This document shows, piece by piece, positions 2,209-47,211 of a stretch of DNA of 47,617 bases. The first letter of the stretch is position 1, and each line of letters starts with the position of its first letter. The notes under the pieces were generated by a model. It had not been told where the DNA came from, searched no databases, and saw only the letters and a program-made list of their open reading frames with translations. A program made the translations under genes and the position numbers. Source of the stretch: a virus; the IMG/VR virus record IMGVR_UViG_3300001782_000147, positions 1-47,617 of that record; one strand, written 5' to 3'.

Positions 2209-2237
2209 TTGTAATTTTTGGATTTTCCAGTTATAAT
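2209..2237 (+). promoter_or_regulatory. Sigma-70-type promoter for the prepilin cassette
   Basis: TTGTAA (2209-2214), 17-base spacer, TATAAT (2232-2237), followed by the cassette of three plus-strand genes. A near-consensus promoter independent of the lytic minus-strand unit fits expression from the prophage. Confidence 0.65.
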
Positions 2238-2275
2238 ATATGGTGTGAACAAGGTTTTCAGAGAAAAGAGGTCAA

Positions 2276-2410
2276 ATGGATAGGATACAAGATTTTCTAT
2301 ATAAACTCGAATACAATGAGTTTCTGAATCAATGGTGGTGGGTCGGCATTTTGTTGGCCGTGCCGATTATTGTTTGTTACCTGTGGAAGTGGTTAACAAG
2401 GGACATCTGA
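2276..2410 (+). CDS. Small single-span membrane peptide (44 residues)
   Basis: ATG 2276 follows AGAGG by four bases and opens a 44-codon frame ending TGA 2410. The protein has a polar N-terminus, then a tryptophan-flanked hydrophobic stretch (QWWWVGILLAVPIIVCYLW, about residues 24-42) and a short basic tail. It is the first gene after the strong promoter. Its stop overlaps the AAAGGAGG of the prepilin gene, so the two are probably co-translated. Possible roles are an assembly partner of the prepilin or a membrane exclusion peptide; I do not recognise a family. Confidence 0.55.
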   Translation: MDRIQDFLYKLEYNEFLNQWWWVGILLAVPIIVCYLWKWLTRDI

Positions 2411-2421
2411 AAGGAGGCAAA

Positions 2422-3252
2422 ATGAAAAATGGTTTTTCTCTCACTGAAATTTTATTAGCCATCGGTGTGCTTGTCATCGGAATGCTTTTTATAGCCGGTG
2501 TATTTCCGGTCGCCATTCATTTCTCTACAATGGCAACCGAGGAAACCATCGCTGCAATAGTAGCCGACGAAGCTTTTGCAAAAATAAAAATCTATGCATT
2601 AGGCGATTTGATTGATTACACCGATGATATAGACATCTCTAAATCTAAACTAAGAACAGATAAATTGACGCCTGTTACGTTTACGGCGTTGGACGATGTA
2701 TTTCCAGCAGCAAGGCACAAAGACACAAACCTTAACGAATTTGCATATCCGTCAACTGATACGGACTCGCAAAAACAATATTATTGGTCGGCCCTGTGCA
2801 GGCTTACAGAAGAATACAACAAAGATAATAACCCGAATCCACTTATGCAGGTAACCGTTTTTATTAGTCGAAAAGTTAATCAAAATCTAAAATACCGCAC
2901 CTTGAATGGCAGTGATGATGCTGATTGGCCGATGCCGATTAAAGTGAAAGTCGAACAAACCAGTCTTAGAAAAAATGAACTTCGGATAACAAGTCCAGAA
3001 ATACGTTTTTTTATCAACGATGGTTATATAATTGTCGATAATAAAACCGGTCGAATTTATCGAGTATTAGAGCGTTATGCAACTCCAAAAGATGATATAG
3101 TTTTACTTGATAGGTATTGGGATGGCAGACGCATTCCTCTTGGTAGTTCTCCTATTCTCGATGAACCGGAATATATCTGGGTAATTCCTTCGCCAATAAA
3201 TGGTGGCAGAAATCCCTGTATAAATATCTATCAAAAAATCATTGGTTTTTGA
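2422..3252 (+). CDS. Type IV prepilin-like / pseudopilin protein (phage-borne cargo)
   Basis: ATG 2422 sits behind AAAGGAGG. Residues 1-30 are a class III prepilin signal: a short basic leader (MKNG), cleavage Gly4|Phe5, Glu at mature position 5 (FSLTE), and a hydrophobic helix (ILLAIGVLVIGMLFIAGVF). The remaining 240 or so residues are a mixed globular domain without a motif I know. Such proteins are cleaved and N-methylated by PilD-type peptidase and join type II secretion or type IV pilus-like filaments. The gene is flanked by two membrane-protein genes and has no pilus ATPase or platform nearby, so it would have to use host machinery. It is 276 residues long, longer than most major pilins. 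Confidence 0.75.
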   Translation: MKNGFSLTEILLAIGVLVIGMLFIAGVFPVAIHFSTMATEETIAAIVADEAFAKIKIYALGDLIDYTDDIDISKSKLRTDKLTPVTFTALDDVFPAARHKDTNLNEFAYPSTDTDSQKQYYWSALCRLTEEYNKDNNPNPLMQVTVFISRKVNQNLKYRTLNGSDDADWPMPIKVKVEQTSLRKNELRITSPEIRFFINDGYIIVDNKTGRIYRVLERYATPKDDIVLLDRYWDGRRIPLGSSPILDEPEYIWVIPSPINGGRNPCINIYQKIIGF

Positions 3253-3260
3253 ATTTGCAA

Positions 3261-3710
3261 ATGAGCGTAGAAAAATGTAATAACTGCGAAAAAGAAATTG
3301 GTAATCTTGAGCCAGCATATGTGTTTAACGGCAAAATAGTTTGCTCAAAATGCAATGATATAATCAGAACAGAAGTCCCTGACAAAACGGCAACAAACAA
3401 GCCTGAAAAAATAACCAAAAAATATATATTTCTAATAGTAATAGGCGGTATAGCTGTTTTTTCCTTATCCATTATCTCCGTTGCTCACTTTACGCACCGC
3501 ACAATCACTTCGATACTTCAAGAATCATTCGCGGCAGCAATACCGTTATCAATTATAGCTGCTATTCTTTTCGGTCTCACAATCAAACCGATTCGGAAAG
3601 CTGTCGGCTTGTTGCTTATTATTCTCGGCGTCCTCGAGTGCTTATCCTGCATAGGAATGATTATCGGTGTTCCGTCCATAATCGTTGGAGGTGTCTTTAT
3701 CTTTTCATAA
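3261..3710 (+). CDS. Zinc-ribbon membrane protein
   Basis: A 149-residue protein starting at ATG 3261, eight bases after the prepilin stop. Cys6-x2-Cys9 and Cys28-x2-Cys31 form a short N-terminal zinc ribbon. Three or four hydrophobic segments follow (about 54-73, 84-105 and 111-149). It is the last gene of the plus-strand cassette and ends 80 bases from the converging lysis genes. This architecture is common among uncharacterised bacterial membrane proteins. Function unknown; a role with the prepilin or in host envelope modification is only inferred from the shared operon. Confidence 0.65.
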   Translation: MSVEKCNNCEKEIGNLEPAYVFNGKIVCSKCNDIIRTEVPDKTATNKPEKITKKYIFLIVIGGIAVFSLSIISVAHFTHRTITSILQESFAAAIPLSIIAAILFGLTIKPIRKAVGLLLIILGVLECLSCIGMIIGVPSIIVGGVFIFS

Positions 3711-3789
3711 AAAGCAGCCGGTGAAAGCACCCCGCAGACACACGGCTACTTTGTGCAGATATAAAACCTACACAGGAGGAACACTATCC

Positions 3790-4719: not shown

Positions 4720-4953
4720 TTACCATTTACCTATAGGACATTTTTCATTCTCATCTCTTGCAAATCCCGGAACGTATGCGGATATATCCGGCCACAATGT
4801 TCTGCCGAAACGCCTAAGACGTAATTTGCAAAATAAACTTCTCCTTATCCAGAAATTCCATTCGCATTTCTGACAAGCCCTAATCCTATCATCTGTAAAT
4901 TCATATTTTTTTACCTTTAATAAATTCCTGTATTTTTTGCCATAACAAGGCAA
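4720..4953 (-). CDS. Small cysteine-containing protein between tail and lysis genes
   Basis: TTG 4953 with AAAAGGAG six bases upstream is the best start; no ATG in this frame is available. The 77-residue product has Cys27-x2-Cys30 (ACQKCEW), a further Cys near 42 and a closing CPIGKW, suggesting a small zinc-binding fold. Basic and aromatic residues are frequent. It lies 12 bases after the propeller gene and 25 bases before the lipoprotein-like gene. Role unknown. Confidence 0.55.
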   Translation of the reverse strand: MPCYGKKYRNLLKVKKYEFTDDRIRACQKCEWNFWIRRSLFCKLRLRRFGRTLWPDISAYVPGFARDENEKCPIGKW

Positions 4954-4965
4954 TAGGAACTCCTT

Positions 4966-6297
4966 TTAAGTCGCTGTGGCAGCATAATCTTGATTTGTTT
5001 TATCCTCTTGAACATTACTGTAAGCTCTATTGGCTGGGTCAAAAGTATAACCATCTTTCTCTGGGGTAACTGTTCCTGTCCATCCGGCACTTACCAATCC
5101 AGCATAGAAACCATCTTCATCTGTTAAAGGATTATTTGTGAGATTTGTCATCGTCACATCAGCAAGCGGATTGCCACCTTCTTTTACTGTACCAGAAATG
5201 ACAAAAAATATTGCAGGCGTTATAGCAACAGAGTTAATATTATGTGATTCAGGTGCACATTTAACAATTTCACTACCATCAGAAACCTTCAGTTGTCTGA
5301 CATATCTATAATTATCACCGACAAGAATCCTATCTTCGCTTTCTGTTATAGCAAGTGAATTACCATAAATTGTAGAAGCATTATAAGTACCAAGTTCAAA
5401 TGACCATTGAAGTTCACCACTGGAATTAAGTTTCCACACTGTTTTGCTATCAGTTCCGTCCGTACCGGTAGTATAAACATCTTTCGAACTATCCACTGCA
5501 ACGCTTCTTAGATTATCACTGCCTGTATCATACCACCATACTAAAGTCCCGGAACTGTTTATTTTCCATATATTAGCAAATTCTGGGTTAATTTCATCCC
5601 AAAATTCATTTTCCCTTTCACCTGCTGCATAAACATTATGCGAATCATCTACAGCAACAGCACGAATCAGGTTATTCGTACCGAAAGCCCATTTAAGATT
5701 GCCGCTTGAACTTAATTTCCACACAGAACAAAGACGACCAAAAATTCCCACATCGCAATCATTAGGTGGCAATTCTGCCGGAGCACCACCTACATAAACA
5801 TTAAAATTATCATCTACTGCAACGCTATTGGTCGAGTTTCCAGTAAAATAAGTCCAGGCCACAGATTGACCGTTTGGATTTATTTTCCAGACACTTTGCC
5901 ATATTGGCTCTTCCTCTGTACCGGCATTTACAGGCTGACCCACAGCATAGACATTACCACTATAATCAACAGCAATACCTAAAACATCCCCGCCAGTATC
6001 AAAACTCCATACTAATAAACCTTCCGCAGTAAACTTCCAAACACTTTTATTATTTATTCTATTACCCCCGACATAGCAAAAGCCATCTGAGCCTACGGCA
6101 ACAGCCTTTATATGCGAACCTATATCGTAAGACCAAACCGTACCACAAAAGACGGTACTCATAGAGTATTTTCTGACATTTACTCCAAGACTCGAGCCGC
6201 CCAATAAAAAGACATATTGTTTAACAACCAATACTTTTTTAGTAACCGGATTGAAAAGAGCCTTTAATGTACTCGGATTGAATTGTACTTTTGTCAT
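4966..6297 (-). CDS. Seven-bladed propeller virion protein with C-terminal carboxypeptidase-regulatory-like domain
   Basis: The 443-residue protein (ATG 6297, three bases after the previous stop) carries about seven repeats of the form W-x-(Y/F)-x-T-G...AVAVD...NVY-x-x-G...VWK (about residues 55-355), a beta-propeller of the SBBP/NHL-like kind. The last 80 residues (ISGTVKEGGNPLADV onward) form a carboxypeptidase regulatory-like beta-sandwich whose ending (GYTFDPANRAYSNV) is typical of secreted proteins of Planctomycetota. It comes last in the tail module and is a strong candidate for a receptor-binding or adhesin protein at the tail tip. It probably descends from a host surface protein. No upstream SD is clear, so translation may be coupled. 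Confidence 0.7.
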   Translation of the reverse strand: MTKVQFNPSTLKALFNPVTKKVLVVKQYVFLLGGSSLGVNVRKYSMSTVFCGTVWSYDIGSHIKAVAVGSDGFCYVGGNRINNKSVWKFTAEGLLVWSFDTGGDVLGIAVDYSGNVYAVGQPVNAGTEEEPIWQSVWKINPNGQSVAWTYFTGNSTNSVAVDDNFNVYVGGAPAELPPNDCDVGIFGRLCSVWKLSSSGNLKWAFGTNNLIRAVAVDDSHNVYAAGERENEFWDEINPEFANIWKINSSGTLVWWYDTGSDNLRSVAVDSSKDVYTTGTDGTDSKTVWKLNSSGELQWSFELGTYNASTIYGNSLAITESEDRILVGDNYRYVRQLKVSDGSEIVKCAPESHNINSVAITPAIFFVISGTVKEGGNPLADVTMTNLTNNPLTDEDGFYAGLVSAGWTGTVTPEKDGYTFDPANRAYSNVQEDKTNQDYAATAT

Positions 6298-6299
6298 AA

Positions 6300-7007
6300 T
6301 TAAGCCGAATAACAATCACATTCCTCGTCACCTGAGAAACCTTCAGTACACCACCATTTACCGCCTGAGTTTACAACCATCAAGTAATCATCATTAGCCA
6401 ATCGGCGAATAGCATCGTTTAAGGCTGTACCGTGAGAAATATTACAATATACTTCAATGCCAGAACCAAGTCCGGACGTTATTTCAACTCCATCGTTGCC
6501 GATTAGGTTGCAAGTTATATGGTCGTTAGCTGTAGCAGACTGGGTCGTCCTTGCTCTACGGGTAGACGGAACTAACGGAATCCCGACCCATCGTGCTTTT
6601 CCTTCATCGTCGAACCATTCCCACGCTGCTATCCGGTCTTTAAGAGCAAGAGCCGGTGTATAATCCGCCTCGACATCGTTCTCCAGAAGATTCAAAACCT
6701 CAACGATATTGGTATCGTGGTCGAGAAACTTATCAAAACCGGTTGTGTCAATCCAGTTCGTGGAATCGAGGACTTGCTCATAACAGTTATAAACGCCATC
6801 ACCGGTAGCTGCCGATTGCACCTCAAAGATTTTAATCTCAAGGTCGTTCAGTTCCGGTTGCCGCGTGTGCAGACCTGAACTGTCACGTAGACCTACGACC
6901 GGGATTGATTGAACTAATTCGTTGACGTTCTGTGTCGTTTGATTCAGTACGCGTGCACTCGGACGGTCACGATTCCCTACGAGCGGTTTGAAAGGTACAG
7001 GTCTCAT
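6300..7007 (-). CDS. Putative distal tail structural protein
   Basis: A 235-residue protein starting MRPVPFKPLVGNRDRPSARVL. It overlaps the upstream gene by one base and is followed three bases later by the propeller gene. It lacks signal or membrane segments and looks globular, with a Trp/Gly/Cys-rich end (GGKWWC...EECDCY). The position after tape measure and one further tail gene suggests a tail-tip or baseplate-hub component. I recognise no domain. Confidence 0.5.
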   Translation of the reverse strand: MRPVPFKPLVGNRDRPSARVLNQTTQNVNELVQSIPVVGLRDSSGLHTRQPELNDLEIKIFEVQSAATGDGVYNCYEQVLDSTNWIDTTGFDKFLDHDTNIVEVLNLLENDVEADYTPALALKDRIAAWEWFDDEGKARWVGIPLVPSTRRARTTQSATANDHITCNLIGNDGVEITSGLGSGIEVYCNISHGTALNDAIRRLANDDYLMVVNSGGKWWCTEGFSGDEECDCYSA

Positions 7008-7867: not shown

Positions 7868-9901
7868 CTACGGAGCAACCGTACCTATGCCATCTAAAGC
7901 ATCGATTAGTTCGCTGTGTTGTGTTTGTGCCAATCGTGTTTCGGTTTTCAACTGAGTCAGTGATTTCTTTCCAACATCGAGTATTTGTTTTTGTGTTATT
8001 TCTGTCGCGATGTCTCTTTGCGGTTCTGTCAACGCCCGTGCCATCGTTTTCCACGCCTCGGCAAGACCGACAAAACCGACCGCACCGACAGCACCGGCGG
8101 CAGCCGGTATACCGGCACCGGCCAAACCGCCGCGACCGCGACCGCCGGTTCGGATGATTTCTCGGTTTAATTGCTGAGCATATTTCTTGGCAATTTGAGC
8201 ATCTAACGCGACAATTCTATCTGCCATATCACCGAATATGTCTCGGATTTCGCTCGGTACATTCAATGCTATCAAACGAGCAGCGTTAGAAAACTCTGCG
8301 GTTGTTTTTCTCAAAACATCTGCCCACATAATTCCGGCAGTTGCACGCGGACCTACAAGTGATTCGATTGAGCGACCAGCTCCACCGTGCACAACCCAAC
8401 CCGGCGGAACTTCTATCCCACGCCAGCGTTGAATTTTTGCACGTATCTCTAAAAATCTTATTGCGACGTTACGCATAGCATTCTGCCACGCAGCAACAAG
8501 CTCGGCTGAGATTTTTTCCCAGATATGTTTGAGCGAACGACCGAACGCGACAAACATAGTCAGAACTGAATTGAGACCGTAACCGATAGCGGTTCTCCAA
8601 TCAGAATAGATATACTTTGCAAGATTCCAAAATGCACCCGCAAGAACCTGTATCCGAGCAGCTATCCGTTCTCCCCACATCTGAACCGCCGTTCCGTGCT
8701 TCCGTAAAAAGACTGTAATCTTATCGGCCATTGTGCCGATACTTGTCGCTAATCGTAATATCGCCGGTGAGAGTAATTGTCCTATCGTCCGTGACATTCT
8801 CGTTATTCTCTGCCATACTTGCCCTAAACGCTCCCAGAAAGATAGCATCTGTTTCTGAGCTATTTTCTCCGCAGTACCGCCGGACTTTTCGAGCATTTCG
8901 GTAAAGTCACGCAACGCGGTATAGCCCCGGTCAAAGATAGCAATCTGACCAGTAATAGCTCGTGCTCCAAACATCGTCTTGAACATAAGATTCCGTTGCT
9001 GCTCGGACGCGTTCCGTAAGACAGCGGATACCTCGTTGATAATAGTCAAGAATGATTTCATTCGACCGGAACTGTCATAGATTTGTATATTGTACTGAGC
9101 AAGAAGGTCGCGGAGAGCACTCATCGGTGCCATCAAGTTTATGAGACCGCGACGGAGATAAACTCCGGCACGTGAGCCTTTGATTCCGACGTCGGCCATC
9201 GCTGCGATTAGAGCGGTTGTTTCCTCTAACGTGTTGTTTGCGGTTCGAGCGACTCCGGATACGAGCGACAACGATTCTCCTAACTGAGCAAAGGTCATAT
9301 TGCTTGACGTGACCGCTTTTGCTAACACGTCCGTGACGTGCGTTGTCCTTTCGAATCCGAGGTGGAATCCTTTCATCGTATCGACGACCATCTCGGCGGT
9401 TTCTCCCATCTCCATTGTCGCTGCCTTAGCCAAGGTCGCGACCGGAACGAACGCCTGTATCTGCTGCGTGGCAGATAGCCCGGCACTGCCGAGAAAATAA
9501 AACGCGTTGGCGGTTTTCGATGCCGCCATATTAAGACGAATTGATTGTGTTTCAGCCATTCGAGTCATAAGCTCGAACTGAGTGGATGTGACTTCGCTAA
9601 CGGCGGTCGCTCGACGCATTGACCGTTCAAAGTTACCGAACGCCCGAAGCGATAACGTAGCGTAAGCTATAATAACAACCGAAAGTCTTTTGAGAATCCT
9701 GAACATACTTTCAGCGACTCTTTGAACCGTCTGCAAGACGGTTGTTATGGTTCCGGTTACGAGCCTCGTAATCCCACCGGCAACCGCAGCCAACGGAGTA
9801 AACCCTACTTTGAGAGCACCTAAAGCCGACGACATCGACGACATAAAACTTGACCGACGAATTGTAAGGTCGATATATCCTTCACCGAGTTCAAACGCCA
9901 T
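7868..9901 (-). CDS. Tail tape measure protein (TP901-type core)
   Basis: A 677-residue protein, the longest in the window. It begins with a hydrophobic, Gly/Ala-rich region (about 20-80). The core resembles the TP901 tape-measure family (about 110-330, with AKAATMEMGETAEMV and GESLSLVSGVARTANNTLEE), including KGSRAGVYLRRGLINLM. The C-terminal part has helical and Gly-rich segments (RTGGRGRGGLAGAG). It sets tail length and is threaded through the tube. The start ATG 9901 overlaps by one base the stop of the frameshifted tail chaperone, the usual arrangement. The length suggests a short tail. Confidence 0.85.
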   Translation of the reverse strand: MAFELGEGYIDLTIRRSSFMSSMSSALGALKVGFTPLAAVAGGITRLVTGTITTVLQTVQRVAESMFRILKRLSVVIIAYATLSLRAFGNFERSMRRATAVSEVTSTQFELMTRMAETQSIRLNMAASKTANAFYFLGSAGLSATQQIQAFVPVATLAKAATMEMGETAEMVVDTMKGFHLGFERTTHVTDVLAKAVTSSNMTFAQLGESLSLVSGVARTANNTLEETTALIAAMADVGIKGSRAGVYLRRGLINLMAPMSALRDLLAQYNIQIYDSSGRMKSFLTIINEVSAVLRNASEQQRNLMFKTMFGARAITGQIAIFDRGYTALRDFTEMLEKSGGTAEKIAQKQMLSFWERLGQVWQRITRMSRTIGQLLSPAILRLATSIGTMADKITVFLRKHGTAVQMWGERIAARIQVLAGAFWNLAKYIYSDWRTAIGYGLNSVLTMFVAFGRSLKHIWEKISAELVAAWQNAMRNVAIRFLEIRAKIQRWRGIEVPPGWVVHGGAGRSIESLVGPRATAGIMWADVLRKTTAEFSNAARLIALNVPSEIRDIFGDMADRIVALDAQIAKKYAQQLNREIIRTGGRGRGGLAGAGIPAAAGAVGAVGFVGLAEAWKTMARALTEPQRDIATEITQKQILDVGKKSLTQLKTETRLAQTQHSELIDALDGIGTVAP

Positions 9902-10858: not shown

Positions 10859-11260
10859 TTACGCTCCCGCGAAGACAATATCACCGTCGCCATCGATAAC
10901 AAGCGTACAACTGAGCATCTCGGAGTTCTCGATGTCGATTTCAAGATTCTCGATTGAATCAATCCGTGCAGTACCGGTCGCGGTTTTTCCGGTATTACTT
11001 GTCAGTTCAAAATCAACTGACTGACCGGCGTACCAAGTCGGCCAAACACCGTCGTTAAGATATACATCAATCGAACCGTCAAAACTCTTATTACCCTCTG
11101 CGGATTTTTTCCAACCGCCTGTATCACTTGTTGCATATTTCTTGTTGTCTGCACGCTTATTGACTGTGAACTTTCGGACGGACGCAAGGGCAGCAAGGAC
11201 TCCGCCAGCAGCTATCATCTTGACGCTGCCTTTTATGCCGGTTATCGGTTCATCTGGCAT
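10859..11260 (-). CDS. Tail tube protein paralog B
   Basis: A 133-residue beta-rich protein that shares an 18-residue identical stretch, KYATSDTGGWKKSAEGNK, with the neighbouring 122-residue protein. Both also end in similar I-x-(N/S)-(I/L)-E-I-D-I-E repeats. Small size, position before the tail chaperone and beta-sandwich character fit a tail tube subunit. The 33 bases at 11087-11119 are identical to 11496-11528, showing recent duplication or gene conversion. One copy may be the main tube and the other a terminal or decorated variant. Confidence 0.6.
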   Translation of the reverse strand: MPDEPITGIKGSVKMIAAGGVLAALASVRKFTVNKRADNKKYATSDTGGWKKSAEGNKSFDGSIDVYLNDGVWPTWYAGQSVDFELTSNTGKTATGTARIDSIENLEIDIENSEMLSCTLVIDGDGDIVFAGA

Positions 11261-11279: not shown

Positions 11280-11648
11280 TTAACTCAAAGGACCATTGCC
11301 GTCGATATTTATGCTATAGCCTTCCATTCCACTACCTTCAATATCGATTTCAATATTCTCAAAGCTACGGATTCGACCACTACCGGACCTTGTCTTTCCG
11401 GCAGCCGTTTGAAAGGTACAGGCAACGACGGCTCCGACTGTATATGTCGGAAACGCTCCGTCTTCCATATAGACTTCAACAACCGCATCCCAATCCTTAT
11501 TACCCTCTGCGGATTTTTTCCAACCGCCGGTGTCTGAGGTAGCGTACTTTTGATTGTCTGCTCTTTCATTTATTGTAGCTTTCCGAACCGAAGCAACTTC
11601 GGTATCAAGCGTCACATTACCGCCTATCGCTGTAATTGGATCTGGCAT
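11280..11648 (-). CDS. Tail tube protein paralog A
   Basis: A 122-residue protein starting MPDPITAIGGNVTL, 19 bases upstream of its paralog. It shares KYATSDTGGWKKSAEGNK and overall layout with it, but lacks the extra Ala-rich insertion near residue 20 (GGVLAALAS) of paralog B. A role as tail tube subunit is inferred from size, repeat and synteny; neither copy shows breakage. Confidence 0.6.
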   Translation of the reverse strand: MPDPITAIGGNVTLDTEVASVRKATINERADNQKYATSDTGGWKKSAEGNKDWDAVVEVYMEDGAFPTYTVGAVVACTFQTAAGKTRSGSGRIRSFENIEIDIEGSGMEGYSINIDGNGPLS

Positions 11649-23184: not shown

Positions 23185-24177
23185 TTAACCCGTTTTTGTC
23201 TGATAAATAACTTGCCATTCTAAACGCAGCAAAAGTATCACTGAACCGTATACGACCTCGACAAAAACAAAGTGCTTTTCCGTTGAAAACAAACCGCCGA
23301 TATTATCCGGAATTGTCCCTTTATAATTACCCGATGAAGTCGGTATGTAAGTCAAACTTATATCCTTGCCGTTCGGCAGACCGACATAGAATCCCTCGTC
23401 GCCGTCAAACGTTTCGGCGACGTATGTTTTGTCGATAATGAAGTTGTCTGCGTCTCTAATCGCTTCAATATCGTACTGGTCATTATGCTGGTCTGTGCTC
23501 TCAATTCGAATAAAATCGCTGCTATCGAGACCGTGTGCCGTTGCCGGAATTTTCGTCCGTTGATTTTTCGTTGAATCAGCAGTTATCGTTGCAAAGTTAT
23601 CAAGATGACAGTTACCGGTCTCCGTCACTACCCACGCTTTTGTAAACTTAAACTTTGTATCGTCGACCTTCGTAATTGTATAAGTGCCGTTGTAATTAGT
23701 CGTATCGGTTATCTCGACCGAATCTCCGGTCAACGCACCGTGAGCGGACGCACAGTTTGCCTGAACTTCTCCGCCACCGGCATCTTCGAACGAACTGATT
23801 GCGACTTGAGGTCCGTCCATATCCTCGGCGGCACTAAATGTTCCGATCTGCGATGATATATGCAAATCACCGGCTGCGTCACCGCCAGCCCACGTTCCGG
23901 ACGATACTTCAATTTGTTCTATTACAGCCGTTGCTCCGCTCGTAACTCCGACGATAGTATCACCGAGAGTAGGCACGTGGACTCCGCCGCTCGTAAAAGA
24001 TAACTTGTGTAAAGCTACCGCAGAACCGGCAGTGATAGAACCTAATTCCGGTTTGAAAATCGAAACCTTTACCGAATCCGCGTTGTTGATATATGAACCG
24101 GTATCGTTGTCCTTTAATCCGGTGATTTGAAATAAGGTGTCACTCCCTATAAAGATTTTGTCAGTTAGTTCAGCCAT
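23185..24177 (-). CDS. Putative virion fibre or decoration protein, beta-rich
   Basis: A 330-residue protein, Thr/Gly/Asp-rich, starting MAELTDKIFIGSDTLFQITGL. It contains repeated short beta units, for example HGALTGDSVEITDTTNYNGTY and HGLDSSDFIRIESTDQHNDQY (about 145-165 and 212-232), each followed by a D-x-(K/N)-F motif. These repeats are typical of phage structural proteins that fold as beta stacks. It overlaps the LamG gene by eight bases and probably works with it in a fibre complex. Confidence 0.5.
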   Translation of the reverse strand: MAELTDKIFIGSDTLFQITGLKDNDTGSYINNADSVKVSIFKPELGSITAGSAVALHKLSFTSGGVHVPTLGDTIVGVTSGATAVIEQIEVSSGTWAGGDAAGDLHISSQIGTFSAAEDMDGPQVAISSFEDAGGGEVQANCASAHGALTGDSVEITDTTNYNGTYTITKVDDTKFKFTKAWVVTETGNCHLDNFATITADSTKNQRTKIPATAHGLDSSDFIRIESTDQHNDQYDIEAIRDADNFIIDKTYVAETFDGDEGFYVGLPNGKDISLTYIPTSSGNYKGTIPDNIGGLFSTEKHFVFVEVVYGSVILLLRLEWQVIYQTKTG

Positions 24178-25000
24178 AAGCCTTTTTCGCTCCTATTGTG
24201 CTGATTGTTAACCTCGATTTGCTTGACGGTACAGCAATCAACTTGCTTTTGCTGCTTGGAGTTCCTATCAAAGAAGATTTTGAATATAATGAAGTTAAAC
24301 CGATTGACATATCCATAAGCTTTTCAGTTCCATAACCACTGTTCCACAAAAAATCACGTTCGGCTTGTGTTAAAACTTTATCAACCCAAAAACCAAAGCA
24401 ATCAAAATAAGCGTCTATAGGGTCGCCTCCGCTAAAGTTCGCACCGATGTGAGTAGGGTGTGTTTGTATTGATTTTTTGGGTCTGCCTGTTTGTGAGGCA
24501 TAAAGGGTATTGCCATTGTCAATCCAGATATGGGCACTTGCATTTGTATTGTGAACACGCTGACAAATAATTTGATGCCAATCCCCATCATCGGGTATGG
24601 CATTTATATCTGTCTGCAAGTTAATTCCATATCCAGCATCGTAGTCATAAAAATGAATTCGCTTTGCAGCACTAAAACGGACAGCCCAAATCCCTTCATT
24701 ACCACTATCAGTCCTTTGAACTACAAAAGAACCATCATTATTATAATCTGATAATTTAACCCAGAAAGCTACCGCAAAGCTCATTATGCCGTATGCACCA
24801 TCCAAAACTGTTATATAGTCTGGGATGGCATCATCGCTTCTCAATGATTGATTTATTTTTCCGGCAGATGATAGGATATTTGTATTGCGTTGTGCCGTAC
24901 CATCTGAATGTCCAGATATAGAATTCAACACGGTTTTGTTGGCTGCATTATCGTTCATCTTCAAATGCATACTGCAATTTTCACGCAAATCAACCGACAT
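24170..25000 (-). CDS. LamG/concanavalin-like fibre protein
   Basis: A 276-residue protein whose core (about 10-215) is a LamG-like jelly roll: LHLKMNDN-type opening (here CSMHLKMNDNAANKTV), then MSFAVAFWVKLSDYNNDGSFVV, DGDWHQIICQRVHN and AHIWIDNG. Such domains bind carbohydrate or surface polymers. The C-terminal 45 residues are a Ser/Lys-rich repeat (SKSSLIGTPSSKSKLIAVPSSKSRL). It sits beside another beta-rich gene just before the terminase genes, far from the tail tip genes, so it may be a head fibre. Confidence 0.65.
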   Translation of the reverse strand: MSVDLRENCSMHLKMNDNAANKTVLNSISGHSDGTAQRNTNILSSAGKINQSLRSDDAIPDYITVLDGAYGIMSFAVAFWVKLSDYNNDGSFVVQRTDSGNEGIWAVRFSAAKRIHFYDYDAGYGINLQTDINAIPDDGDWHQIICQRVHNTNASAHIWIDNGNTLYASQTGRPKKSIQTHPTHIGANFSGGDPIDAYFDCFGFWVDKVLTQAERDFLWNSGYGTEKLMDMSIGLTSLYSKSSLIGTPSSKSKLIAVPSSKSRLTISTIGAKKAYG

Positions 25001-25755: not shown

Positions 25756-26895
25756 TTACGTAGAAATAGCAGGACGCACGGATTTGCACCGGCCTCTACT
25801 GTCTGGATTGACAGTCGCAACGCTATCTTTGCTTGCCCCGCTTATTACTGATTCACAATGTTTTATCTGACTATTGATAAGATAAGAATTAAAATCGAAT
25901 GATTGAATCTCGTCAATCTTTTTTGGCAATCTCATAGAATACCAACGGTTGAGCCACCAGTCACGAACACTGTTTTCAGGTCTGTTGACTTGACATCTTA
26001 ACTGCTTCGATTCACCACGTAGAACTGAAAGACTATTTTTTGCAAATAGACTCATATATACTCCGCGTTGTTGCTGTGACTTAATTGTCTCATTTGGAAT
26101 ATGGAGAGCGTTACAAATAGCAAACAGACTTAAAAGTTTAGAGTCCATTCCAAAGAAGCCGTGAGCACGGCTTAATAAATTATTCTCCTTCATAAACGCA
26201 CGAATGAGTTTCCAATCTGCTTCGTTGATATGACTGACACCGCCGCCGGGTGTATCACCGATATATTCCCATTCCTTAACTCGGTTGTATATAGATGATT
26301 TTCCGAAAAGAGAAGTCGTGCACATACCGGCAAGTTTTTCTCCGTATCGGTTGTGCCAATCTTTGCGGATTCGATTAGACGTGATAGCGACTATCTGATA
26401 CTTACCGCCGGTTAGCAATCCGAATGGTGCTACACAAACACACGTACCGACGTTTGCAAGAAAATTCAGTCCGCCGTGATTCCGTCGTTTCAAAGTCCAG
26501 CCGATGTATTTCTCACGCGGTCCTAAAATCAGAACATCGGAACCAATATCAAGCACTCCGATTATGCCGTTTGTATTTGCATCAATGCAAAATAAATATA
26601 ATGCTCGACCGGGTCGATGCGTAAATGGTGCACTTGAAAGAATGTTACGATACCAAAACCACAAGTCTCTCGTCTCCGGACTGACATATACAAGTTTCGG
26701 AGAAATATTTTTATAATTAACTTTTGCCATCAACTTTATGCAGCCACGTTCGAGTTTACGAAGTCTTGTGTACCACTTTTTGAGATTTTCTAATTTACGT
26801 TCGAGCAAGACCGCACGAACGTCGTCCTTCGACTTCGGTATTTTACTTCTGATACGGTTAAATACTTCTCTTATCTCTTTTTCGAGTTTATACAT
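25756..26895 (-). CDS. DUF4338 (DruA-related) protein
   Basis: A 379-residue protein whose centre fits DUF4338, the fold of Druantia DruA: GRALYLFCIDANTNGIIGVL, DIGSDVLILGPREKYIGWT (about 117-145), NFLANVGTCVCVAPFGLL, then RIRKDWHNRYGEKL and SSIYNRVKEWEYIGDTPG. An N-terminal Lys/Arg-rich helix (about 1-60) precedes it. No other Druantia gene is present. It starts inside the ParB-like gene and precedes TerS, so a role in DNA modification or packaging, in the manner of Mu Mom, is possible but unproved. No SD is visible. Confidence 0.6.
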   Translation of the reverse strand: MYKLEKEIREVFNRIRSKIPKSKDDVRAVLLERKLENLKKWYTRLRKLERGCIKLMAKVNYKNISPKLVYVSPETRDLWFWYRNILSSAPFTHRPGRALYLFCIDANTNGIIGVLDIGSDVLILGPREKYIGWTLKRRNHGGLNFLANVGTCVCVAPFGLLTGGKYQIVAITSNRIRKDWHNRYGEKLAGMCTTSLFGKSSIYNRVKEWEYIGDTPGGGVSHINEADWKLIRAFMKENNLLSRAHGFFGMDSKLLSLFAICNALHIPNETIKSQQQRGVYMSLFAKNSLSVLRGESKQLRCQVNRPENSVRDWWLNRWYSMRLPKKIDEIQSFDFNSYLINSQIKHCESVISGASKDSVATVNPDSRGRCKSVRPAIST

Positions 26896-27542
26896 TTTGT
26901 CAAAAGATAATGTAAGGCGTTCCCGGCCTTATGAGGGTTCTTTGAACTTTCGCCGTGACCATTTTCGATAGCTTTATTGATAATTTTCTTAACGTGCTCA
27001 GCTTGATTTGAAGTTAGACGAAAAACAACTTCGATGATTCCTTTTGACTCACTTTCCTCCGGAGTATAATCCGGGTCTATCGTAGGCCCGACAACTATAT
27101 TTTCTATTTCCTCCGGGGTAAAACCGGTCAGGCCGAGGTCGACATCGAGCTGGTTAAACTCCGTGAATAAGTCCGCGAGTTTAAGTCCGTCCCAATCGGC
27201 TAACTCAACCGACTTGTTGTCGAAAACTCCGTATACACGAGCGTCAACTTCGTCAAGGTCAAGATAGATAACCGGTATGATTTTTGCCCCCATTTTTTCC
27301 ATTGCCTTCAATCGCGTGTGACCTGCGATTACAATGTTGTCCGCTCGTCTAACGAGTATCGGATTAGTGTATCCGAAAGCCTCAATCGACCGGACGACAG
27401 CGTCGACCGACTCGTCATTCTTACGCGGATTCCCGGAGAACGGAATGACCTTGTCTATCGGTACATATTCGACCGTAAGCTGTTTTTTAGTTTTGACTGA
27501 TTTGCTGACCGGTTTCTTTGACTTGCCGGTTTTCTTTTTCAT
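26871..27542 (-). CDS. ParB/sulfiredoxin-fold nuclease-like protein
   Basis: A 223-residue protein. After a Lys-rich N-terminus (1-25) comes the ParB N-terminal fold: VPIDKVIPFSGNPRKNDESVD (about 27-47), SIEAFGYTNPILVRR and IVIAGHTRLKAMEKMG (about 72-87). Phage versions are usually linked to DNA modification or packaging genes. The C-terminal part (about 140-223) is charged and specific. AAAGGAG lies 20 bases upstream and serves better a 22-codon overlapping frame starting ATG GCG ATA, so translation may be reinitiated or coupled. Confidence 0.8.
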   Translation of the reverse strand: MKKKTGKSKKPVSKSVKTKKQLTVEYVPIDKVIPFSGNPRKNDESVDAVVRSIEAFGYTNPILVRRADNIVIAGHTRLKAMEKMGAKIIPVIYLDLDEVDARVYGVFDNKSVELADWDGLKLADLFTEFNQLDVDLGLTGFTPEEIENIVVGPTIDPDYTPEESESKGIIEVVFRLTSNQAEHVKKIINKAIENGHGESSKNPHKAGNALHYLLTKCINSKKR

Positions 27543-28075: not shown

Positions 28076-28254
28076 TCTTTCTCCCGCATCTTTTTTGTTA
28101 AAAAACATAAAGCCTTAATGTGTTTTTGTGGTTCTGGCAGTTGTTGTATAAATTGCCTCAGCGTCAAAGTTGTTAATGCTCTGCCCTGCAAGAAAGCTGA
28201 ACATTTGAACAGAAGTTTTTTGCTCATAAACCACTGAATAGCCGCATTTAACAA
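28072..28254 (-). CDS. Uncertain small basic ORF upstream of ssb
   Basis: The 240 bases between the PD-(D/E)XK gene and ssb contain a frame open from the previous gene to TGA 28072, which overlaps the ssb start in an ATGATG cluster. The product is basic and helical (MSKKLLFKCSAFLQGR... and LTKKMREKE at the end). The only starts are TTG 28254 or ATG 28227, both with weak ribosome binding sites. It may be a small coupled gene or a decayed one; no family recognised. Confidence 0.3.
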   Translation of the reverse strand: MLNAAIQWFMSKKLLFKCSAFLQGRALTTLTLRQFIQQLPEPQKHIKALCFLTKKMREKE

Positions 28255-28328
28255 ACGAAAACCGCTTATCGTATTGGCTGCGGCAACAAAAAGAACCGGA
28301 TTCGGCCAACATCTGTTATTGCATACTG

Positions 28329-28853
28329 TTATTCTCGTTTTTCTTTCTCCACCCTTTCTATGAAAACCGCAGTTGAAATCCGCAATCTGCGCAAGATAGA
28401 AACGAGAAAGTTTACTTCTGCGTGTTTATCCGCATCAAACATCAAGGAGTCCTTTGCTTTTCTGATTGAGCGAAATCCGCCTATTTTCTCATATACATTT
28501 AGAAGTCCCAAGCCGTCCGGTAGTTCTTCCGGTTTCACAAGACCAACGGGTACTGCATAATATCGGTGCTGCCCCATCCCGTTTTGGGAATCTCTTCTGA
28601 AAGATTTGTTTTTATCAGCAAAAAAATCTGGACGTGATGTTTTACACTCTATTAGACAGGAGTCACCACCATAACCAAAACCCATCACGTCCGGCGTCTC
28701 TGAATTTGATGTATGCAATTCTTTGGCTGTTACCCTATACCCTTTGCCACGCAACCACGCTTCCGCCCTATTGACAAGTTCACTGTGGGTAATTTTCGGG
28801 ATGTTTTCACTTTTTCCTTCAGTAAAATAATCAAGTTTTCTGATTACTGGCAT
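28329..28853 (-). CDS. PD-(D/E)XK nuclease-like protein (MmcB-like)
   Basis: A 174-residue protein with the restriction-like core: an N-terminal helix with Glu (HSELVNRAEAWLRGKGY, about 23-39), PDVMGFGYGGDSCLIECKTSRPDF (about 54-77; Asp and Glu-x-Lys) and RYYAVPVGLVKPEELPDGLGLL. This is close to MmcB-type and phage nuclease-like proteins. It likely acts in recombination or repair. It overlaps the coiled-coil gene start region by 23 bases. Confidence 0.7.
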   Translation of the reverse strand: MPVIRKLDYFTEGKSENIPKITHSELVNRAEAWLRGKGYRVTAKELHTSNSETPDVMGFGYGGDSCLIECKTSRPDFFADKNKSFRRDSQNGMGQHRYYAVPVGLVKPEELPDGLGLLNVYEKIGGFRSIRKAKDSLMFDADKHAEVNFLVSILRRLRISTAVFIERVEKEKRE

Positions 28854-29652
28854 TTTTTTTCCCCAGCATATCTATTGTTTCCTCAATCTGTTTGTCAAAT
28901 TGCTCGTCGGCAAAATTGTATCCTGCAAGAAAAGCCATCTCTAACCGATTGCGAAGATATTGACCTGATGCTTGGCCTTCGCTGCATTTTTTGCCATCTT
29001 CACTCTCAAACCATTTATCCCTTGCTTTTGCTAATTCTGATTTCATCTCATTCACCGCCTTTCTTCTTTTAATTGCTTCGGGATTAAGGGTTTTTATGAT
29101 AAGCTCGGAAGCTTCTCTGCTTTTGTTTGTGTTAATTAAGTAATGACAATCCCATATTAGTTTCTCAAGCCGCTCGATTCGTGGTTGTAATTTAGCAGCA
29201 CAATCTCGAAATCCCCTTGCGTATTGGCCGTCCATTATCCCCGTTAATTCCTTGATTCGCTGGGCTTGCTGCTGAAGGCAGGCGAGGGCTTGTTCAAAAC
29301 CTGTTAATAAATTGTCTATTTCCCCAAAAGTATCATCCCAACCAACACAATGTTCTTTTATGTTGTGTCTTGCCCCTGCTATGGCTTGCCGACATTTTTT
29401 CAGAAACTCATCGCTCGGCTGGCAATGTTCGGCCTTTATCACTGTTACATCTATACCCAATTCTTCCTTTGCTGCTTGTTTACTAAATTCATCCGCCACA
29501 AGTACGGGTGGATGTTGCTCGGCCTTGAGAAGGGAGAGGACTTGATTGATAAGACAGGCGGGACAATCACAATGGGTTCTATCGTGTTCCCAATTAAAAT
29601 CTTTGTCTGTTAAGCACTTTTCCAATAACTCAATCGCTTTTTCATTGCTCAT
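28831..29652 (-). CDS. Cysteine-containing coiled-coil protein
   Basis: A 273-residue protein beginning MSNEKAIELLEKCLTDKDF, with a Cys/His cluster (HDRTHCDCPACL, about 23-34) and long helical segments (LLTGFEQALACLQQQAQRIKEL and ERLEKLIWDCHYLI). The N-terminal Cys-x-Cys-x2-Cys could bind zinc. Similar mosaic coiled-coil proteins are frequent in phages and are of unknown function. The start ATG is overlapped by the stop of the upstream zinc-finger gene (ATGA). Confidence 0.6.
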   Translation of the reverse strand: MSNEKAIELLEKCLTDKDFNWEHDRTHCDCPACLINQVLSLLKAEQHPPVLVADEFSKQAAKEELGIDVTVIKAEHCQPSDEFLKKCRQAIAGARHNIKEHCVGWDDTFGEIDNLLTGFEQALACLQQQAQRIKELTGIMDGQYARGFRDCAAKLQPRIERLEKLIWDCHYLINTNKSREASELIIKTLNPEAIKRRKAVNEMKSELAKARDKWFESEDGKKCSEGQASGQYLRNRLEMAFLAGYNFADEQFDKQIEETIDMLGKKNASNQKT

Positions 29653-29822: not shown

Positions 29823-30018
29823 TTTTTACTTCCTTTGTTTCAAGTTCCGTATAAATTCTAAAATCCATTAAGCAATGAACAGCCGTTCTCGCTTGGTCGA
29901 TATGCAGTTTGATTCCGCACAAATCCGCATACGTCGGATTAACCCGACCGAGTTTTTCTTTTGCTTTTGTCAGGTGGTCTAACGCGTCGCTCTTGAGCAA
30001 TTCTTTTTCCGGCAACAT
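29803..30018 (-). CDS. Small helical protein
   Basis: A 71-residue helical protein (MLPEKELLKSDALDHLTKAKEKL...) with two predicted helices joined by NPTYADLCGIK. It overlaps the nuclease-like gene upstream by 80 bases in another frame and the zinc-finger gene downstream by 20 bases. The long upstream overlap is odd for phage genes, but both frames look protein-like. Function unknown. Confidence 0.5.
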   Translation of the reverse strand: MLPEKELLKSDALDHLTKAKEKLGRVNPTYADLCGIKLHIDQARTAVHCLMDFRIYTELETKEVKNEGNKR

Positions 30019-30535
30019 ACATCAGCCCTCTAAATAACATATTATCAATCATTGGTTTTAATGTTTTATTCTTGAAATACACACTTGCGTTTATGACTTC
30101 GTAGCCAAGTTGCTGTATATCCGAGATTCTCTTTATTTTCGTCCGTCCGGTTTTCTTGCGACCGGTCGGTATTCTATCGATTATCAATGCTGCCTTGACG
30201 TCCGGGTAATACCGCTTCAAACACCGCAGACGCGTCACGTCTTTTTGTTCCATTAGTCCTTTGATTTCGTGATAGATAAGCTCGTCGTTTTCGGTCACTA
30301 TACCAAAATCAAGACGGTAGACCGTGACACCGTGTTTTTTGTGTTCGGTAAAATCGAAAGTCTTCTGCTCGTAATCCCACGACTTTATTCGAACGCCGAA
30401 AATCGTTTTTGCCAAATCCGGAATCAGCAGGCAAAGCTCCAGCACGCACGCCCACTTCGCTTCGAACCGGCTCTTATAGTACCGGAGCTTACCGCCTATC
30501 CGATACCACGCCTTTTGACTTCGTCTGTGATTCAT
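29939..30535 (-). CDS. PD-(D/E)XK-type nuclease-like protein (DUF1064-like)
   Basis: A 198-residue protein with an endonuclease-like core: FEAKWACVLELC (Glu, about 24-35), VYRLDFGIVTENDELIYHEIKG (Asp and Glu-x-Lys, about 72-93) and RLRCLKRYYPDVKAALI. The arrangement R-L-D-F...E-I-K-G followed by helix and K-R-Y-Y-P matches small phage nucleases/DUF1064. Possibly a Holliday-junction or repair nuclease. The C-terminus is Arg/Lys-rich. Confidence 0.6.
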   Translation of the reverse strand: MNHRRSQKAWYRIGGKLRYYKSRFEAKWACVLELCLLIPDLAKTIFGVRIKSWDYEQKTFDFTEHKKHGVTVYRLDFGIVTENDELIYHEIKGLMEQKDVTRLRCLKRYYPDVKAALIIDRIPTGRKKTGRTKIKRISDIQQLGYEVINASVYFKNKTLKPMIDNMLFRGLMYVAGKRIAQERRVRPPDKSKRKTRSG

Positions 30536-31902: not shown

Positions 31903-32265
31903 TTAAACTAATTCCACCGGCGGTTGCGGCACTGTTCTTTTTTGTGGTTTCCATAAGTGCAAACAATACGGGTGGAGATTCTTATATTTGTCTTTCGACG
32001 GGTGATACTGCACGACCGTCTCGTCCGGATTCCAAAAGAGATTTTTAACAAAGCACATCTCCGCCCACGTCGGCGGTCTACATTCCGAAGTGTGAACGGA
32101 GACGTGGTCCCAACCGTGACCCCAGCTTGCAACCACGAATAAGACTATGTGGTCACGGTCGATTCGTAGCGAAAGACCGGTTTTGCCTTCCGAAAAAATC
32201 AGGACCGGATTTCCGTTTTTGTGAATGTCGCAAAGCTGCCTATAAATTTGTTGTTTGCTTCTCAT
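31903..32265 (-). CDS. DUF7694-type conserved phage protein
   Basis: A 120-residue protein with the well conserved core GWDHVSVHTSECRPPTWAEM (about 51-70), then CFVKNLFWNPDETVVQYHP and HPYCLHLWKPQ. This block is found in many phages with no known function. It overlaps the MazG-like gene stop by one base. Confidence 0.75.
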   Translation of the reverse strand: MRSKQQIYRQLCDIHKNGNPVLIFSEGKTGLSLRIDRDHIVLFVVASWGHGWDHVSVHTSECRPPTWAEMCFVKNLFWNPDETVVQYHPSKDKYKNLHPYCLHLWKPQKRTVPQPPVELV

Positions 32266-32558
32266 TACCAGTCGACCTTACACGCATTGATACAGCTAAA
32301 ACCGAACACCGAACCGACGCCTATATCAAGTAATTCACGAGCGACGTCGTCGAGAGACCCGGCTCTAACAGCTTCAATAAGTTCGTCGTATTCCTCCGCA
32401 ATCGTCCCTAAAATCTCGTGACGAGATACAAAAGCACCGGCTCCTTTTTCGTTCAAGCGTTTAGCGAGCTTGACTGACAACGCGGTTATTCCGCGATTGA
32501 CTTCCTCCGCTGTTATAAGCGGTCTATGTATGTCAGATGTTTTATCGTTTTGAGGCAC
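32265..32558 (-). CDS. MazG-like nucleotide pyrophosphohydrolase
   Basis: A 97-residue protein beginning GTG 32558, with AAAGGAG upstream. It contains the MazG-type metal-binding arrangement EEYDELIEAV...ARELLDIGV (E-E-x-x-E then E-x-x-D, about 55-80). Such enzymes hydrolyse NTPs or modified nucleotides in nucleotide-pool control. The protein is at the short end of the family. Confidence 0.55.
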   Translation of the reverse strand: MPQNDKTSDIHRPLITAEEVNRGITALSVKLAKRLNEKGAGAFVSRHEILGTIAEEYDELIEAVRAGSLDDVARELLDIGVGSVFGFSCINACKVDW

Positions 32559-32559
32559 T

Positions 32560-32841
32560 TTAGCTCCTTTCTAAAAATTCGATGATAACGTCACCGTGAC
32601 ACGGTGACGGTTTACACCAGCAACCGAGTTTTTTACCCTTCAAATTCAAAACCTGTTGTTTGAATGATTCACTTTTTTTTATGAGCAAATTAAACGCAAT
32701 CCGGTATTTATCGATACATTCCTTGCGGTCTCCGTCCTTGCCGATTCTGAACGGATTTCCGAACGGACTACTACGGTCGATTCGCACGATGTCGCTATCC
32801 TTGCACGTTTTCATATTTACAAGTGTGGTTTTAACCGCCAT
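32560..32841 (-). CDS. DUF4326 protein
   Basis: A 93-residue protein starting at ATG 32841 behind GGAG, within the previous gene's end. It has SSPFGNPFRIGKDGDRKECIDKYR (about 25-48, split) and LGCWCKPSPCHGDVIIEFL near the end, the diagnostic Cys-Trp-Cys...Cys-His of DUF4326. Function unknown; metal or nucleotide binding is often assumed. Confidence 0.8.
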   Translation of the reverse strand: MAVKTTLVNMKTCKDSDIVRIDRSSPFGNPFRIGKDGDRKECIDKYRIAFNLLIKKSESFKQQVLNLKGKKLGCWCKPSPCHGDVIIEFLERS

Positions 32842-33055
32842 CGAGTTGCTCCAAAAAATGTGCAATGTCACGCAAACAGTTTTTATCAAATACCGCAGTT
32901 GCCATAGCCGCAAACACGTACAGTCGCCATCGTGGGTAATAAAAAACTTGACCTAACGAATCACCTGATTTGGTATTAACACAGGAATAGCATCGTTTTG
33001 AAGCATATAAACCACCCCTCCGTAGAAAATGAATATGCTTATATTTTGTTTTCAT
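32831..33055 (-). CDS. Small cysteine-containing protein
   Basis: A 74-residue protein with AAGGAG upstream of ATG 33055. It has Cys22-Tyr-Ser-Cys25, a Trp/Tyr-rich middle (VFYYPRWRLYVFAAMATAVF) and a helical end overlapping the DUF4326 start by 11 bases. No family recognised; the good ribosome binding site and coupled overlap support a real gene. Confidence 0.5.
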   Translation of the reverse strand: MKTKYKHIHFLRRGGLYASKRCYSCVNTKSGDSLGQVFYYPRWRLYVFAAMATAVFDKNCLRDIAHFLEQLDGG

Positions 33056-33071
33056 TTAGAACACTCCTTCT

Positions 33072-33809
33072 TTAGAGCAATCGGTTCATACATTTTGGAA
33101 ATTCCCTCTTTTGATAAATTAGAGGCCATTCATCCGGATTCTTACTAACCTCAAAACCGGTCTTAGTTAACAAGTGTATTTGTTTGACATAAATTGGAGT
33201 GTCCGGGTATTTTGTGATAAGGCTCATTATTGCTTCAGGCGGACAATACTTTTTTTCTTTACCGGTCTCCGCTCCGAAAATAAGCCAATAAAGCAAGGAC
33301 ATATTGATAAATTTCAGAGTCAATTTCTCGAATAGCGGTTCGAAACTAATGAATTTTCTCGTATAAAAAGGAACACAATCGATTAAAATTTTAATACGCT
33401 TTACTTCTGTCTGTCGACGGACGGTCGTTCCGACAATGCAGTTTCCCGGAATAGAAAATTCACGGTATCGCTTCGGGTTTTGAGTCAAGAACATAAACCA
33501 AGCCGGTTCTCCCTTGCATTGGTCAAAGATTTCTTGAATCCATTCCCACGGGACCCAATCTCCGAAAATATCATACATACTACCGACGAAGATAATCGGG
33601 TTTCTTTTCCGTTCGTGGACAAATTGTTTAACTTGATTCCAATTGTACCAGTCCGTAACGAACGTCATTTTTTCAGACCAGCCGAAACGGAGACGTATTT
33701 GCTCAGCATAACAATTCGGGCATTGATACTGACATTTGCCGCGAACCGGATTCGCGGTGAAGTCGCACCATCCGATTCGGTTATCAGGACCGTTCATTCG
33801 TTTTGACAT
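33072..33809 (-). CDS. DUF5131 (phage Gp37/Gp68-like) protein
   Basis: A 245-residue protein opening with IGWCDFTANPVRGKCQYQCPNCYAEQ (about 12-37), a Cys-x3-Cys-x2-Cys cluster like a radical-SAM iron-sulfur site, followed by PIIFVGSMYDIFGDWVPWEW, WFMFLTQNPKRY and ISFEPLF. This is the conserved Gp37/DUF5131 family, common in phages; its reaction is not established, though radical-SAM chemistry such as photolyase-like repair or modification has been proposed from the fold. Confidence 0.8.
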   Translation of the reverse strand: MSKRMNGPDNRIGWCDFTANPVRGKCQYQCPNCYAEQIRLRFGWSEKMTFVTDWYNWNQVKQFVHERKRNPIIFVGSMYDIFGDWVPWEWIQEIFDQCKGEPAWFMFLTQNPKRYREFSIPGNCIVGTTVRRQTEVKRIKILIDCVPFYTRKFISFEPLFEKLTLKFINMSLLYWLIFGAETGKEKKYCPPEAIMSLITKYPDTPIYVKQIHLLTKTGFEVSKNPDEWPLIYQKREFPKCMNRLL

Positions 33810-39888: not shown

Positions 39889-40637
39889 TTCCAGCTTGAC
39901 CGGTGAGCCGGAGCGAAGATACCGGCTTTGATTGATTCGTGCATTACGAGCATACGTTCGAGTACCGCTACTATCTGTTTGTCGTCCCGATGCGTGATTA
40001 GCGGATATGCACTAACTCGACCGGACGGCGTACAGATTACGCAGTGATGTCTGAATCCGGTCGGGTCTTTTTTTTGATATGCACGGAATCCGAGAGTATA
40101 GATGCTCGGCTGATATTCGCTGTCGGATTTTTCCTGCGTCCACTTACGCTTGCTTGTCTTACAGTCGTCGATATAATTCTCGGTATCAAGACAATCGAAG
40201 CGGAGAGCAATATTGAACGGCCAATCAGTGAGTATGACCTTGCGGTCTACTTCGACCTCGGTCGGCTGAATCGTACTTTGCAGGTTACGCCGGTCAATCT
40301 CGACCATCTTGACCGTCCGGTCTATGATTCGTCCGGCGGCAGAACTTTTGCTAAGACCGGCAAGCTGCTCACTTTGCAAATCGACATATCCTTCCTCAAC
40401 ACGTCGGTTGATTTCGTCACGAGCACAGTCGAGCATCCGAGTTAAGTCCATATCGACGCCGGACTTTATCTTCTGCCGCAGATTCAATTCTCTTGCGGTG
40501 TGTACGCCGTGACCGCCGGTTGTGTAGAAGTTGCCGAGTTCGCGTTCCTCCACAATATGTTCAAGATAGTAAGCCCATCCGCAGAAGTCGAAGCAACCTA
40601 AGTGTGTCGTGTGATACGTCGGTTTTTCGGTTTGCAT
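39834..40637 (-). CDS. Cas4/RecB-type PD-(D/E)XK exonuclease
   Basis: A 267-residue protein with an N-terminal Cys pair (CFDFCGWAYYLEH, about 15-27), LRFDCLDTENYIDDCKTSKRKW (about 146-167; Asp and Asp-x-Lys) and QPSIYTLGF (Q-x-x-x-Y of RecB-like nucleases). It ends with CSPQWCRFYRHCKF. Four cysteines in this layout suggest a Cas4/AddB-type iron-sulfur cluster. Probably a 5'-3' exonuclease that generates single-strand tails for annealing in this phage's recombination module. Confidence 0.78.
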   Translation of the reverse strand: MQTEKPTYHTTHLGCFDFCGWAYYLEHIVEERELGNFYTTGGHGVHTARELNLRQKIKSGVDMDLTRMLDCARDEINRRVEEGYVDLQSEQLAGLSKSSAAGRIIDRTVKMVEIDRRNLQSTIQPTEVEVDRKVILTDWPFNIALRFDCLDTENYIDDCKTSKRKWTQEKSDSEYQPSIYTLGFRAYQKKDPTGFRHHCVICTPSGRVSAYPLITHRDDKQIVAVLERMLVMHESIKAGIFAPAHRSSWKCSPQWCRFYRHCKFVGK

Positions 40638-40645
40638 AATTCCCC

Positions 40646-47180: not shown

Positions 47181-47211
47181 GATTTGCCCGTAGCGGACGA
47201 TGTTTCGACTT

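Follow-up and report, generated by a model that had tools for sequence, protein, structure and literature searches.

A temperate tailed phage carries, beside its integrase, a predicted minor-pilin gene that probably alters host surface filaments while the virus is dormant

Why would a tailed phage keep a gene for a pilus-type subunit next to its integrase, and what could such a subunit do in the host? This question is raised by the IMG/VR virus record IMGVR_UViG_3300001782_000147, the whole of which (47,617 bases, hereafter the window) was analysed in this study. Three open reading frames form a cassette that has a tyrosine integrase on one side and the late-operon end on the other, and that runs in the direction opposite to that of the late genes (Table 1). 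The initial annotation had placed a three-gene cassette here, comprising a membrane peptide, a protein with a class III prepilin signal and a zinc-ribbon membrane protein, and its coordinates were right.

Table 1 Features of the cassette and its surroundings in the window
Feature	Position	Strand	Basis
Tyrosine recombinase (integrase), 276 aa	1055..1885	+	PF00589 E 6.7e-24; phrog_1 E 6e-52
Candidate promoter, TTGTAA-17-TATAAT	2209..2237	+	10/12 match
Single-TM peptide, 44 aa	2276..2410	+	Open reading frame; Shine–Dalgarno 5/6; one predicted TM
Prepilin, GspI/PilV-like minor pilin, 276 aa	2422..3252	+	TIGR02532 above cut-off; G005 homologue; Shine–Dalgarno 6/6
149-aa protein, CxxC...CxxC then four predicted TMs	3261..3710	+	DUF5362 fragment at C-terminus; weak Shine–Dalgarno
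Likely bidirectional terminator, hairpin with flanking A-run/U-run	about 3711..3755		Between convergent cassette and late operons
Cys-rich protein, 77 aa, late-operon end	4720..4953	-	Marker used to find the phage group

The surroundings of the cassette are those of a phage. On its - strand, the window encodes the complete equipment of a tailed phage, with terminase, portal, major capsid and tape measure besides other genes for tail and head; all plausible larger genes from 3790 onward are likewise on the - strand, and the integrase is on the + strand. Candidate catalytic residues of the integrase, read by eye from the translation, are R (TGLRASE), HxxR (HSFRH), H (LGHAS) and Y (TEDYLHW). The record ends divide a DUF932 gene between them (1-380 and 47187-47617), and one frame reads across the join; an apparent frameshift lies about 150 bases or less from the left end. 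Another contig, G002, is near-identical and terminates at precisely the last base of the window. Because the DUF932 frame crosses the join and the end base is shared, the record is read as a near-complete, circularly joining genome, with ends that appear to join and the cassette inside phage DNA. The prepilin gene thus sits in a temperate phage, one that has an integrase along with structural genes for head and tail, and whose ends join. Near-identical contigs span 9367-47617, none reaching the cassette. Host contamination as the source of the cassette was ruled out, since the flanking genes are those of a phage and the record ends join.

Several further features of this genome were recorded. 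The late operon ends with a gene for an SBBP-type beta-propeller repeat protein (4966-6315; phrog_8401, E 7e-28) that may serve in receptor binding, and a protein with a Laminin_G_3 (concanavalin-like) domain is encoded upstream of the terminase (24170-25000). The stretches 11087-11187 and 11496-11596 are 76% identical, which suggests a duplication of neighbouring tail genes, and an overlapping inverted repeat (GGCGGCAGCCGGTATACCGGC) lies within the tape measure gene (8096-8123). A DUF5131 protein (PF07505, E 3e-26) is encoded at 33072-33809, and the relatives have genes of similar look.

Within the cassette, the genes are separated by 11 and 8 nt, and Shine–Dalgarno sites were scored against AGGAGG, that of the third gene matching at 2/6. 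The first product is a predicted 44-residue membrane peptide, for which profile searches gave no family above cut-off. For the third product, the paired CxxC motifs and the four predicted membrane segments bear out part of the earlier description; it matched PF17319 (DUF5362) with 27.0 bits (cut-off 25) across 36 residues, but zinc-ribbon families all scored below cut-off (LIM 14.4 vs 22.9), and the CxxC pairs are what suggest a ribbon. The supposedly strong promoter has the good match given in Table 1, but the scan returned 21 promoter-like sites where chance alone predicts 20.1, so the element is suggestive only. At the other end of the cassette, the hairpin has z values of -4.05 (- strand) and -2.86 (+ strand), the former beating 200 of 200 shuffles, and it is likely a bidirectional terminator that would insulate the cassette from the late operon. 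The G+C content of the cassette is 38-40%, against 47-51% in the structural genes; a G+C content below that of structural genes is common to many accessory genes.

The second gene product was examined for a class III signal, taken as a short basic leader ending in G or A, then F, M, L or Y, with E at mature position +5 and a hydrophobic helix of about 20 residues. Its N-terminus, MKNG/FSLTEILLAIGVLVIGMLF, has each of these elements: the signal MKNG/FSLTE is followed by a hydrophobic helix (segment 10-28), cleavage is predicted between G4 and F5, and E stands at mature position 5. Against TIGR02532 it scored 17.9 bits as a protein (cut-off 16.3) and 21.5 bits in a six-frame search, of which it was the sole match in 47.6 kb, and the initial assignment of a prepilin signal is upheld by these scores; against Pfam N_methyl it scored 14.5, under the cut-off of 21.2. 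Exact-peptide searches, mostly in the close-relative range, found no relatives of the prepilin, the integrase or the third protein in IMG/VR and none of the prepilin in GTDB genomes, where distant cellular homologues are possible; mostly close-relative searches of phage and plasmid collections likewise gave none for the prepilin.

A homologue was found through a degenerate DNA pattern around VADEAFAKI, the stretch just past the hydrophobic helix, picked from Planctomycetota prepilins that we take to be similar. Two scans of genome contigs gave no hit. With the pattern, one further virus contig was retrieved, G005 (54.2 kb), whose prepilin (E 1e-45) aligns over its full length with that of the window, with 114 of 227 aligned residues identical (50%) and two invariant cysteines; past position 58, identity is 78/171. 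For this pair, dN is 0.43 and dS 1.99, the latter close to saturation, and the resulting dN/dS of about 0.2 indicates that the prepilin gene is under purifying selection. A chance motif was ruled out by the single six-frame match together with this homologue under selection. A recently captured host gene without function would suit the low G+C content of the cassette; it is nonetheless extremely improbable, being disfavoured by purifying selection, with the motif intact and the gene layout recurring in a related phage (see below). The tail module of G005 has the same gene order as that of the window, and G005 is on this ground a distant relative of the window phage. Its prepilin gene, with phage genes on both sides, runs counter to the structural genes and is the first clear gene of a long early-type operon that has no recognised integrase near it.

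The type of subunit is suggested by the best named matches of the window and G005 pair, PilV (G005 E 9e-7) and GspI (G005 E 1.4e-6), both minor pilins. These GspI/PilV matches (TIGR01707, TIGR02523) concern the N-terminal 50-80 residues of both proteins and leave the large C-terminal domain of the window protein uncovered. The PilV scores were 22.7 bits for the window and 29.4 for G005 against a curated cut-off of 52.2, and the GspI score of G005 was 28.7 bits against 44.35; neither protein reached the curated NCBIfam cut-offs for a GspI/PilV equivalog. Two AlphaFold2 models had mean pLDDT values of 39.8 and 35.9, with the N-terminal helix alone moderately confident. Since the family scores are sub-cut-off and both models are too poor for a fold search, the C-terminal domain can be given a pilin fold only tentatively.

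The 77-aa Cys-rich protein, which is 66% identical to its G005 counterpart, yielded eight contigs as a marker of the phage group. Five of these represent three distinct phages with TIGR02532 prepilins above cut-off (G005; G007, the same as G008; and G011, the same as G012), and 13 further related records, several of them fragments, are without a prepilin motif. G011 has the integrase first, then a 92-aa membrane protein, the prepilin and a 137-aa membrane protein that gave weak TPR-like matches, after which comes the convergent tail end; the integrase is 44% identical to that of the window and equivalent in position. The layout of integrase, membrane protein, prepilin and membrane protein recurs with different proteins in G011/G012, and because it recurs in a related phage the cassette is not a unique host insertion. 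The two prepilins have no homology past the signal, and that of G011 (Pfam N_methyl 26.9, above cut-off) is GspJ/PilW-like by eye, without named-family support. The 44-residue peptide and the third gene likewise recur in protein type alone, as small membrane proteins, and not in sequence: the first membrane protein of G011 is homologous to a G016 protein (E 3e-8), and the 44-residue peptide of the window has no homology to the G011 or G016 membrane proteins.

Three other relatives use the same interval differently. In G016 (28183-29461, L063), G013 (32052-33337, L064) and G017 (26310-26929, L066), the slot, in opposite orientation to the late genes, holds predicted exported proteins, judged by eye from their N-terminal sequences, which lie behind a small conserved protein and are followed by an integrase. 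The small protein has the consensus KEDLAPVFGLKNILSAGL and is possibly a regulator. The very C-terminal end of a repetitive, predicted exported protein of G013 (32052-32909, L064) gave a weak PEP-CTERM-like match, scoring 14.9 where the cut-off is 20.7, which might point to a host that sorts proteins through an exosortase. Because G011, G016, G013 and G017 fill the equivalent interval with differing envelope proteins, we read the interval between late-operon end and integrase as a variable slot for envelope-directed cargo; the marks of a moron cassette seen here are the likely terminator and slot contents that differ among relatives, with the promoter at chance level. Such varied envelope proteins, the G013 protein included, would also fit a cargo that serves the host, with the subunit restoring or changing adhesion, DNA uptake or secretion of the lysogen and having no anti-phage role. 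We regard a pure fitness cargo as distinctly unlikely; nothing separates it from the main explanation, and the known precedent, described below, has been interpreted as exclusion.

The third prepilin of the group is placed otherwise. In G007 (29836-30297; G008 40453-40914), a GspH/ComGD-like prepilin is encoded just upstream of the terminase genes, and no integrase is nearby. Its position, and that of the G005 gene at the head of an early-type operon away from a recognised integrase, would suit a protein of the lytic phase or of early host takeover, anchored in the membrane by its pilin-like signal, or a component of the virion. This is very unlikely for the window, because here and in G011 the prepilin gene runs counter to the late genes, and the likely terminator sets the window cassette apart. 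As the G005 and G007 prepilins are not beside an integrase, a strictly lysogenic role in all members is argued against.

A precedent for the pilin itself was overlooked when the locus was said to resemble no described system. According to a review (PMC12826054), the minor pilin P-FimU of Pseudomonas phage JBD68 replaces that of the host and becomes part of its type IV pilus, and in JBD68 lysogens the phage pilin is thought to block similar phages with the pilus still working. This is the one characterised case of a phage-made minor pilin that could be found; PHROGs also lists a 'pilin' family under moron genes. In JBD68 (KY707339), the single convincing prepilin motif is that of gp10 (8677-9318), which is GspH-like (TIGR01708 E 9e-10) and is on this account taken to be P-FimU. 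Both phages are temperate and encode a prepilin of minor-pilin type, but the JBD68 subunit is of the GspH/FimU type and that of the window GspI/PilV-like, without usable similarity between them (BLASTP best E 2.9). Whereas gp10 lies within rightward late genes, about 13 kb from an integrase-like gene, the window prepilin belongs to an operon beside the integrase, with an orientation opposite to that of the late genes, and the partner genes differ too. Since a tip complex comprises FimU, PilV, PilW, PilX and PilE (PMC13170266), the H-type subunit of JBD68 and the I/V-type subunit of the window would take different places in the same kind of complex. The G007 prepilin has weak similarity to gp10 (E 3e-6) and also matches phage-encoded prepilin-type families, namely PHROG 3433 'pilin' in the moron category (phrog_3433 E 2e-4) and, among PHROGs with pilin-like N-termini, phrog_11596 (E 4e-5); the window prepilin matches no PHROG of pilin kind. 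A generic pilin query hit 3 of 50,697 phage records and missed JBD68 too, and is thus unusable as a base rate.

Other prophages shut the pilus down. Tip (D3112), Aqs1 (DMS3) and further prophage-encoded inhibitors target the host type IV pilus, and switching off the pilus is an established way for prophage proteins to bring about exclusion (PMC12826054, PMC11436027). The phage prepilin might similarly poison filament assembly or occupy the prepilin peptidase, and the two small membrane proteins encoded with it could help to block the assembly platform, giving a pilus-negative lysogen. We hold this inhibitor or decoy role to be unlikely. Neither Tip nor Aqs1 is a pilin; both are small and have PilB as their target. 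The large C-terminal domain conserved in two divergent phages exceeds what a peptidase decoy needs.

The explanation that we prefer, with a probability of roughly one half, is that the cassette occupies a lysogenic-conversion slot and that its cargo, a GspI/PilV-like minor pilin, enters the type IV pilus or type II secretion pseudopilus of the host and changes or blocks the filament. In this temperate tailed phage, a slot in opposite orientation to the late genes would carry small operons for envelope-directed proteins, and the cassette would be transcribed in the prophage from its own promoter. The prepilin would be inserted in the inner membrane, where, judging from the motif, the host prepilin peptidase would cut after G4 and N-methylate the new end. 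The mature subunit may then join the tip or priming complex of either filament and replace, or sit beside, the I/V-type minor pilin of the host. The filament would be altered or blocked as a receptor or adhesin, and the lysogen would be shielded from pilus-dependent phages or changed in adhesion. The two flanking membrane proteins might, as guesswork, assist or tune insertion or assembly. This explanation draws on the signal above the TIGR02532 cut-off, the selected full-length homologue, the PilV and GspI best matches of the pair, the location inside phage DNA, the recurring layout, the further prepilin of G007/G008, the predicted exported proteins in the slot of G016, G013 and G017 and the likely terminator; the chance-level promoter, the sub-cut-off PilV/GspI scores, the poor models and the 13 related records without the motif count against it.

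A broader and tentative proposal, which we consider possible though doubtful, is that this phage group repeatedly captured different host minor pilins, of I/V type (window and G005), J/W-like (G011) and H type (G007), at least two of them in the integrase-side slot with partner membrane proteins, as a strategy of re-tipping the host pilus or pseudopilus subunit by subunit. If so, the swapping of pilus-tip subunits would be a wider phage strategy, as would be suggested by a group of uncultured phages with at least four prepilin-carrying lineages, two of which have an equivalent integrase-side operon with non-homologous subunits. The group provides concrete genes and a genomic slot in which other surface-changing cargo may be found.
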